This document shows, one piece after another, positions 15,176 to 59,294 of a stretch of 64,000 bases of DNA. Under the pieces are notes generated by a model. The model searched no databases. It had not been told where the DNA came from and saw nothing but the letters and a program-made list of their open reading frames with translations. This DNA is from Arthrobacter sp. H-02-3 (GTDB lineage: Bacteria; Actinomycetota; Actinomycetes; Actinomycetales; Micrococcaceae), in the NCBI RefSeq assembly GCF_003097355.1, contig NZ_PYUI01000004.1, positions 62,001 through 126,000 of the forward strand. The letters run 5' to 3'. A program made the translations under genes and the position numbers. How positions within the stretch are numbered: position 1 is the stretch's first letter; each line of letters opens with the position of its first letter.

Positions 15176-15259
15176 TTTCCCCACCTTTGGCGGCACGACG
15201 CCGGGACGCGCCGGGTGTTCGGGCCGACACGGCGTCGGCGCCCGGCGAACATGGGGAAA
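15176..15259 (+). repeat. Dispersed ~84-bp element with inverted TTTCCCCA ends (copy A)
   Basis: It begins TTTCCCCACCTTTGG and ends TGGGGAAA, giving 8-bp perfect terminal inverted repeats. The interior is GC-rich and self-complementary. The first 15 bases are shared with two copies at 59213 and 59361, which makes this a dispersed family. Confidence 0.65.
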
Positions 15260-15321
15260 TTCGGCGACGCCGGCATTGGCATCGATGGTCCCATCGCTGA
15301 TCGGCGGCACGGTTGGAGTCT

Positions 15322-15368
15322 CCACAATTCAGTTGTGCACAATTGAATTGTGTACAACTGAATTGTGG
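15322..15368 (+). promoter_or_regulatory. Triple OhrR-type operator (47-bp near-perfect palindrome)
   Basis: Three abutting 15-mers: CACAATTCAGTTGTG (15323), CACAATTGAATTGTG (15338) and TACAACTGAATTGTG (15353). Each is a dyad resembling the known OhrR box TACAATT-N-AATTGTA. The whole forms a palindrome centred on 15345 with a single mismatched pair. The ohrR -10 box begins 3 nt after it. Confidence 0.85.
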
Positions 15369-15370
15369 GG

Positions 15371-15376
15371 TAGGGT
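15371..15376 (+). promoter_or_regulatory. -10 box for leaderless ohrR
   Basis: TAGGGT lies 6 nt before ATG 15383. The operator covers the -35 region, so bound repressor should block polymerase. Confidence 0.65.
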
Positions 15377-15382
15377 AAAGCT

Positions 15383-15847
15383 ATGACCACGCCAGAAGGG
15401 GCCCGCCCGCACGGGTCCGAAGCTCTCCGCCTGAATCGGCAGGTGTGCTTTGCCATGTACTCGGCCTCCCGTGCGGCCACGGCCGCCTACCGGCCCATGC
15501 TGGAGGAGCTCGGCCTGACCTACCCGCAGTACCTCGCCATGCTGGTGCTGTGGGAAGCGGAGCCGCGCAGCGTCCGTGAACTGGGGGAGGAGCTCGGGCT
15601 CGACTCCGGGACGCTCTCGCCGCTGCTCAAGCGGCTCGAAGCCCTCGGCCTCGTCCAGCGCCGCCGGTCCGCCGAAGACGAGCGCCGCGTGGAGATCTTC
15701 CTGACCGACGCCGGGGCTGCGCTAAGCGCCAAAGCCAGTGGCATCCCGCAACGGCTCGCCGACGCCGCCGGCCTCACGCCTGCCGAACTCGACCAGCTGC
15801 GCGAAACCCTGGGCCGGCTGGCCAGTGCACTCCAGGCCTCCCACTGA
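15383..15847 (+). CDS. ohrR: OhrR, MarR-family organic hydroperoxide sensor/repressor
   Basis: A 154-residue winged-helix repressor. The peroxide-sensing Cys of the OhrR group is present near the N-terminus in LNRQVCFAMYSASRA (about residue 22), followed by the tyrosine-containing AAYRPMLEELGLTYPQYLAM. The DNA-binding part is VRELGEELGLDSGTLSPLLKRLE, and the wing has RRRSAEDERRVEIFLTDAG. One-Cys OhrR proteins release DNA when this Cys is oxidised by organic peroxides. The triple operator just upstream and the ohr gene downstream fit autorepression and control of ohr. Confidence 0.93.
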   Translation: MTTPEGARPHGSEALRLNRQVCFAMYSASRAATAAYRPMLEELGLTYPQYLAMLVLWEAEPRSVRELGEELGLDSGTLSPLLKRLEALGLVQRRRSAEDERRVEIFLTDAGAALSAKASGIPQRLADAAGLTPAELDQLRETLGRLASALQASH

Positions 15848-15997: not shown

Positions 15998-16429
15998 ATG
16001 AAACCCCTTTACACAGCCGAGGCCCTGGCCTCCGGCGAAGGCCGCGACGGCACCGCCGTCAGCAAGGACGGCAAACTCAACGTGGCCCTGGCCAGCCCGG
16101 TCGAACTCGGCGGCAGCGGCGAGGGCACCAATCCCGAGCAGCTCTTCGCCGCCGGTTACGCGGCCTGCTTCCACTCGGCGCTGCGCCTCGTCGGCCGCCA
16201 GCAGAAAGCAGACCTGACCGATTCCGCCGTCGCCGCGAGGATCCACCTCGGCGCCCTCGACGGCGGCACCGGCTACGGCATCGCCGCCGAACTCGAGATC
16301 GCCCTGCCCGCCGTGGACCGGGAAACCGCTGAGGCCCTCGTGGCCAAGGCCCACGAGGTCTGCCCCTATTCCAACGCCACCCGCGGCAACATCACTGTCG
16401 ACATCAAAATCCTGGAGGTAGCTGCATGA
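15998..16429 (+). CDS. ohr: Organic hydroperoxide resistance protein Ohr (OsmC superfamily)
   Basis: A 143-residue thiol peroxidase that reduces organic hydroperoxides. Both catalytic cysteines are present: GYAACFHSALRL (about residue 60) and HEVCPYSNATRGN (about residue 124). The N-terminus MKPLYTAEALASGEGRDG is typical of Ohr. It lies 150 nt after ohrR without its own OhrR box, so it probably depends on the ohrR promoter or on an undetected promoter. The stop overlaps the next gene by ATGA. Confidence 0.94.
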   Translation: MKPLYTAEALASGEGRDGTAVSKDGKLNVALASPVELGGSGEGTNPEQLFAAGYAACFHSALRLVGRQQKADLTDSAVAARIHLGALDGGTGYGIAAELEIALPAVDRETAEALVAKAHEVCPYSNATRGNITVDIKILEVAA

Positions 16430-17457
16430 GCACCCACACCGAAACTCCCACCCTTCCCGTCACCACCCGCGAGATCCAGCTGGCGTCCCGTCCGCACGGC
16501 CGTCCGGTCCCGGCGAACTTCCGCCTCGCCGAGTCGCCGCTGCCCGAACTGCAGGACGGCCAGGTCCTGGTCCGCAACCTCTACATCTCGGTGGACCCGT
16601 ACATGCGCGGCCGCATGAACGACGTCAAGTCCTACTCCGCGCCGTTCGCCCTGGATGCCGCCCTCGACGGCGGCGCAGTCGGTGAAATCATCGCGTCCCG
16701 GGCCGAAGGGCGCGCCGTCGGCGATACCGTCGTGCACAGCCTCGGCTGGCGCGAATACGCCGTCCTCGACGCCGCGGCCACCACCCCGGCGCGCACGGAC
16801 CTGGCCCCCGCCTCCGCGTTCCTCGGCGCCCTCGGCATGACCGGCCTGACGGCCTACGCGGGTCTGCTGAAGGTCGCCGAATTCAAACCCGGCGAGGTCG
16901 TGTTCGTCTCGGGCGCGGCAGGTGCGGTCGGCTCCCTCGTCGGGCAGATCGCCAAGGCCATGGGTGCGTCCCGCGTGATCGGCAGCGCCGGCTCGCCGGA
17001 AAAGGTGGCACGGCTCCTGGAACTCGGCTTCGACGCCGCGTTCAACTACCACGACGGCCCTGTGGCCGAGCAGCTCGCCGCCGCCGCGGGGGAGCGCGGG
17101 ATTGACGTCTACTTCGACAACGTCGGCGGCGAGCACCTTGAAGCGGCGCTGTCCGCGCTCACCGTCGGCGGCCGGGTGGCCATGTGCGGCGCCATTTCGC
17201 AGTACAACTCCACCGAGCCGACTCCGGCGCCGCGGAACCTCATGCAGGCGATCGGCAAGCAGCTGACGCTCAAGGGCTTCCTCGTCAGCGGCTACTGGCA
17301 GCACATGGCCGAGTTTGTCGAAGCCATGTCCGGCTGGCTGGCCGACGGAACCGTCCGCTACGACGAGACGGTGGTGGACGGCCTGGAGAACGCACCGCAG
17401 GCGTTCATGGACCTGCTGGACGGCGCCAACACCGGCAAGATGCTCGTCCGGCTGTAG
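16426..17457 (+). CDS. NADP-dependent MDR-family oxidoreductase (CurA/prostaglandin reductase-like)
   Basis: A 343-residue medium-chain reductase without the structural zinc Cys cluster. Motifs: LYISVDPYMRGRMND, the cofactor loop VFVSGAAGAVGSLVGQIAKAMG, a GSAGSPEKVARL segment after the second beta strand, and IDVYFDNVGGEHLEAAL followed by RVAMCGAISQYN. This matches zinc-independent 2-alkenal/prostaglandin reductases that remove reactive enals. It is translationally coupled to ohr (ATGA), which suggests a role in clearing lipid peroxidation aldehydes. The substrate is inferred, not shown. Confidence 0.9.
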   Translation: MSTHTETPTLPVTTREIQLASRPHGRPVPANFRLAESPLPELQDGQVLVRNLYISVDPYMRGRMNDVKSYSAPFALDAALDGGAVGEIIASRAEGRAVGDTVVHSLGWREYAVLDAAATTPARTDLAPASAFLGALGMTGLTAYAGLLKVAEFKPGEVVFVSGAAGAVGSLVGQIAKAMGASRVIGSAGSPEKVARLLELGFDAAFNYHDGPVAEQLAAAAGERGIDVYFDNVGGEHLEAALSALTVGGRVAMCGAISQYNSTEPTPAPRNLMQAIGKQLTLKGFLVSGYWQHMAEFVEAMSGWLADGTVRYDETVVDGLENAPQAFMDLLDGANTGKMLVRL

Positions 17458-59177: not shown

Positions 59178-59212
59178 GCTGGTGGCCAAATGGCTGAGCT
59201 TCGACGTCGGAA

Positions 59213-59294
59213 TTTCCCCACCTTTGGGGGGCTCGCCCGGCGTGTCGGGCAGAGGAGCCGGTGAGTCCCGTCGTCGTTGTCTCAATGGTGGGGA
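59213..59294 (+). repeat. Dispersed ~82-bp element (copy B)
   Basis: It starts TTTCCCCACCTTTGG and ends GGTGGGGA, so the ends are inverted repeats. The interior has a stem GGCTC...GAGCC enclosing GCCCG-GCGTGT-CGGGC. It is preceded by TCGACGTCGGAA, shared with copy C. Confidence 0.75.

Follow-up and report, generated by a model that had tools for sequence, protein, structure and literature searches.

The region upstream of ohrR in Arthrobacter sp. H-02-3 raised the question of whether three OhrR boxes placed end to end form a new kind of switch or a longer version of a known operator, and of what the outermost box contributes. The window, that is, the whole 64,000-nucleotide stretch of DNA that was analysed, came from a genome that was Arthrobacter-like. 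When the sequence was re-read, positions 15323-15367 were found to be occupied by three abutting 15-bp dyads with zero spacer (Table 1), as an initial sequence-only reading had described. The longer 47-bp dyad of that reading (15322-15368), with its one mismatched pair, was also recovered: 22 of 23 positions paired, the exception being G15337/T15353, and the arms (15322-15344 and 15346-15368) were 96% complementary about one central base.

The ohrR-ohr operon and its promoter

The 15323-15367 element is almost certainly the operator through which OhrR regulates its own operon, ohrR-ohr. The ohrR product gave the PF01047 and PF12802 matches of a MarR winged helix-turn-helix protein, and its nearest solved relatives were the OhrR proteins of Xanthomonas and Bacillus (PDB entries 2pfb/2pex, E 4e-40 to 9e-39; 1z91, B. 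subtilis OhrR, E 1e-35). Its sole cysteine, Cys22, aligned with the OhrR sensing cysteine, which places the protein in the 1-Cys type; judged by this alignment Cys22 would be the reactive residue, and the partner Tyr positions aligned with those of X. campestris and B. subtilis OhrR. The recognition-helix region, LDSGTLSPLLKR, was nearly identical in sequence to its counterpart in B. subtilis OhrR, LDSGTLTPMLKR, and the Arg/Asp residues of the wing also aligned; the contacts that the recognition helix and wing make with DNA have been described (PMC6372160). The best NCBIfam match, NF052638, scored 160 bits and fell short of its cut-off of 200, which counts to some extent against the assignment; the model, the only curated OhrR model in the comparison, is a narrow, Vibrio-named equivalog, and its cut-off is not strictly defining. 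In all Arthrobacter loci inspected, ohr followed ohrR in the same orientation. Together with the family and PDB matches and the single Cys22, the adjoining ohr gene upheld the OhrR identity proposed from the sequence. The medium-chain reductase gene is a probable third member of the operon, as indicated by its 4-nt overlap with ohr.

Table 1. Features of the ohrR-ohr locus, in window coordinates.
Feature	Position	Strand	Remarks
OhrR box 1 (distal)	15323..15337	.	CACAATTCAGTTGTG; PWM 25.0 bits
OhrR box 2 (middle)	15338..15352	.	CACAATTGAATTGTG; PWM 28.9 bits; kept in extended-array relatives
OhrR box 3 (core)	15353..15367	.	TACAACTGAATTGTG; genus-wide core box, constant register to -10
-35 element TTGTGT	15348..15353	+	TTGTGC or TTGTGT here in 90/98 genus promoters (count describes layout); 17-bp spacer
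-10 element TAGGGT (TANNNT)	15371..15376	+	3 nt past box 3; assigned from conservation
ohrR, 1-Cys OhrR repressor, predicted leaderless	15383..15847	+	MarR/OhrR matches
ohr, organic hydroperoxide reductase	16001..16429	+	TIGR03561 173 bits, cut-off 88.85
Medium-chain reductase	16426..17457	+	PF16884, PF00107; overlaps ohr stop codon

The boxes were dyads of the TACAATT-N-AATTGTA type and lay over the promoter, overlapping the -35 element and ending 3 nt from the -10 element. The 4.7-Mb genome contained just three perfect matches to the 13-mer ACAAYTNARTTGT, all of them within the array, a pattern that goes beyond chance. The assignment of the boxes to OhrR was also borne out. Beyond the array there were four genomic sites with one mismatch each to this 13-mer, compared to two such sites for a control, and further OhrR targets in the genome were not accepted on this basis.

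The -35 element straddled the junction of boxes 2 and 3, taking in the right end of the former and the first base of the latter, and box 3 sat inside the -35/-10 spacer. Six nucleotides separated the -10 element from the ATG at 15383, a distance which suggests that transcription starts at the A of this codon; the ohrR transcript is therefore predicted to be leaderless, as had been supposed, and relative to this start site boxes 1, 2 and 3 would occupy -60..-46, -45..-31 and -30..-16, respectively. Experimental mapping has established leaderless ohrR transcripts in Chromobacterium violaceum (PMC3469484) and Cupriavidus metallidurans (PMC7563307). When 98 distinct genus promoters were aligned on the best-scoring box, 3 nt and TANNNT, the first start codon was 6-7 nt past the -10 element in 95 of them, a count that describes the layout and is no independent test, since the box/-10 register was part of the selection and most rows that lacked a nearby start codon after the -10 element had been filtered out. 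No sigma-70 site was predicted at this operator by a consensus-based promoter scan; TTGTGT/TAGGGT is too distant from the E. coli consensus, and the promoter assignment rests on conservation.

The genome also carried a second OhrR-like gene, 44% identical and with the conserved Cys. An operator-like repeat with 15-bp spacing, CTAATCATTAGTACACTAATCATT, was located just upstream of this paralogue (L092), at G000:C11:133672-133695; it differs from the ohrR array and is a candidate operator. A pattern resembling CTAATCATTAGTACACTAATCATT was found in 12 of 61 genus genomes by a pattern scan irrespective of adjacency to the paralogue.

Array length in Arthrobacter and beyond

The core layout of the genus consisted of a partial box, TNAGTTGTG, in which TTGTGC serves as the -35 element, a full box in the 17-bp spacer, 3 nt, TANNNT and, 6-7 nt further on, the predicted leaderless start. 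Short operators of this kind (1.5 units) accounted for 83 of the 98 distinct promoters. The right half of their partial box was significant in 82/83 and the left half in 14/83 (p<0.01; the PWM p-values for boxes count related sequences as independent). Layouts of 1.5 units that resembled the genus core were also present at ohrR of Crossiella, Nocardia and Pelomonas.

One extra 15-bp unit was present in 13 promoters, comprising the window and its nearest relatives, and in two of a separate lineage (L019 and L111). A stricter genome scan detected the extended pattern (2.5 to 3 boxes) in about 12 of 206 genus genomes; with up to three mismatches allowed it was found in 5/295 family genomes, one of which (G623) reads as a short operator. 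At the same tolerance the triple-box pattern was found once among 395 class genomes, at the array in the window. The L111 genome G031, which lay outside this class sample, had three nearly complete boxes. Among all extended arrays the window had the top-scoring and most complete box 1.

Promoters of the extended group retained the right half of their outermost box in 13/13 cases and its left half in 7/13 (p<0.01), against about 0.13 expected for the left half, and a right half-site was present at the place of box 1 in none of the 83 short promoters. Because the extended group had initially been selected by visual inspection for its additional unit, more weight falls on the contrast between left and right halves than on the 13/13 count. 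The box 1 right half cannot act as the -35 element in these promoters, and its retention argues for protein binding. Loss of the three-box layout in close relatives that keep regulation had been regarded by the sequence-only reading as evidence against a working array, and on this point the relatives were divided: the left half of box 1 was lost in about half of them; the right half and the two proximal boxes were kept.

Three further promoter variants were observed. The ohrR promoter of L018 (= L061) had lost the right half of its core box (TACAACTGAAAAAAT); its -10 element and upstream boxes remained, and it is a natural test of the need for the core box. The array of L111, which with L019 makes up the separate long-array lineage, read CGCATTTGAATTGCG CACAATTGAGTTGTG CACAATTGAATTGTG. 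In the promoters of L116, L121 and L129 both of two boxes were almost complete but their inner half-site was a different one (L121: ACAAGTAAGTTGT / ACAACTTACTTGT), which suggests that OhrR specificity has drifted in this sublineage.

On the OhrR tree, extended arrays appeared in several places, with five changes by parsimony, three of them forced by well-supported branches. The upstream spacers of L057 and L058 were like those of the main group and those of L019 and L111 were like those of short-array species, a difference in kinship by which two lineages or more hold long arrays. The parsimony figure from the protein tree was not taken as the number of gains, as promoter and gene may have recombined and the spacer holds a dispersed repeat; two lineages only are claimed. 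The same repeat makes spacer likeness weak evidence. Under the best explanation, arrays would be lengthened or shortened over evolution by whole 15-bp units.

The dispersed repeat was GC-rich, lay upstream of the operator at window positions 15180-15265 and had seven genomic matches including itself (73-100% identity). Another copy was located near window positions 59210-59277 on the minus strand, and related sequence was also present upstream of ohrR in several relatives.

Role of the distal box

Building on the observed protein family, boxes, promoter register and conservation pattern, and on the lack of other exact boxes in the genome, we consider it fairly likely that the array acts as follows, with a working third dimer on box 1; the binding, the three-dimer occupancy, the cooperativity and the redox release would be the steps added to these observations. 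Reduced OhrR dimers would bind the 15-bp boxes; a dimer on box 3 would fill the -35/-10 space and a dimer on box 2 would cover the -35 element, the two together excluding RNA polymerase. Box 1 would hold a third, upstream dimer that strengthens the occupancy of boxes 2 and 3 through contacts between neighbours. Organic hydroperoxide would oxidise Cys22, which would probably then form a mixed disulphide with a low-molecular-weight thiol, and release of the oxidised dimers would turn on ohrR, ohr and the reductase gene from the leaderless transcript. The L018 promoter, which keeps its -10 element although the right half of its core box is gone, counts against this explanation.

A step of 15 bp corresponds to 1.43 helical turns. 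Neighbouring dimers would consequently lie about 154 degrees apart, on different faces of the helix as had been anticipated, with some 51 degrees between those on boxes 1 and 3. The effect of box number was calculated with an illustrative occupancy model with assumed constants, in which occupancy of box 2 or box 3 blocks the promoter. Without cooperativity the apparent Hill slope was 1.19 with two or three boxes alike. With tenfold cooperativity the slope was 1.21 for a weak half-site plus core, 1.55 for a weak half-site plus two boxes and 1.83 for three boxes, and the corresponding leak was 2.2e-2, 3.0e-4 and 1.1e-4. According to this simple model, the third box would help only if dimers bind cooperatively. 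The steep peroxide switch that had been proposed for three boxes is a plausible hypothesis. The degenerate left half of box 1 in 6/13 relatives indicates that three-dimer occupancy may be weak or dispensable.

That same degeneracy is what would be expected if slippage had once duplicated the 15-bp core unit and box 1 were the neutral copy, in decay or intact here by chance, with regulation left to boxes 2 and 3; the variation in array length between lineages and the 1.5 units of most of the genus also agree with such an origin. We regard this as somewhat unlikely, given the full retention of a right half that has no -35 role, the excess of retained left halves over expectation and the long array of the separate L019/L111 lineage. 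It is quite improbable that box 1 serves to block upstream contacts of RNA polymerase or to permit redox-dependent activation by OhrR, instead of stabilising neighbouring dimers. Its position relative to the predicted start site would suit either role, and some MarR regulators, among them the OhrR proteins of A. caulinodans and D. zeae, are tabulated in a review as both repressor and activator (PMC10458429); however, most OhrR proteins in that table are plain repressors.

The palindrome itself might act as a structure, such as an RNA hairpin or a cruciform, for instance in terminating transcription of the upstream gene, and its RNA form did fold at -32.6 kcal/mol (z about -11). In the relatives, however, the 15-bp boxes persisted and the 47-bp dyad retained only 13-20 of 23 pairs, and random triples of real boxes paired at 21/22 positions or better in 12% of simulated draws. 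The conserved unit was therefore the 15-bp box, and the near-perfect 47-bp palindrome is a by-product of stacked symmetric boxes and was set aside as a separate signal. The strong fold follows from box symmetry and was not conserved. No T run followed the palindrome and no terminator was called there, the register of the operator was locked to the promoter, and the sole Rfam match, mir-19, was below the gathering score and represents a chance hairpin match. A hairpin, terminator or other RNA element was rejected on these grounds, and a structural role is extremely improbable.

To return to the cooperative array, a bolder extension of it is that operator length is an evolvable dial, with 15-bp units gained and lost and OhrR dimers winding round the helix. 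We hold this to be unlikely; if true, it would give the peroxide response a species-specific steepness and threshold, with the window at the long end.

Comparison with known OhrR operators

Among the papers that a literature search returned, none dealt with Arthrobacter OhrR operators. In Streptomyces avermitilis, OhrR protects 28 nt containing two 13-nt sites at -45..-18 of ohrB2 (PMC6034001), a footprint that is consistent with 15-bp spacing and that falls where boxes 2 and 3 lie here. The consensus ACAATTNAATTGT is common to both systems, and site a of S. avermitilis (ACAATTCAGTTGT) matches the box 1 core exactly. The S. avermitilis sites number two and lie between divergent genes, whereas here there are three, with one operon direction and a predicted leaderless ohrR. 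As related in the S. meliloti paper (PMC3107159), adjacent OhrR motifs occur in B. subtilis, A. tumefaciens, S. coelicolor and X. campestris. Boxes of the TACAATT-N-AATTGTA type, often adjacent, are likewise described for B. subtilis, A. tumefaciens, S. coelicolor and S. meliloti (PMC6034001, PMC3107159), the layouts of B. subtilis and S. coelicolor being second-hand from citing papers; one or two boxes are given for these species, and a third adjoining dyad was not reported in the literature surveyed. The geometry had been called unusual from the sequence, and this holds only for the third unit, which is the new part; abutting boxes are ordinary, as the published adjacent pairs indicate.

The 83 short Arthrobacter promoters share with the window the core box, the -35 and -10 elements and a predicted leaderless start in a common register, and differ in having 1.5 units in place of three. 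With the extended arrays they make up a natural series in which promoters of 1.5, 2.5 and 3 boxes keep a constant register and have closely related repressors, which would permit a direct test of how the number of repeats affects the leakiness of a redox switch and its steepness. Taken alone, the operator extends known OhrR regulation: it is a length variant of the known OhrR operator and no new kind of switch.
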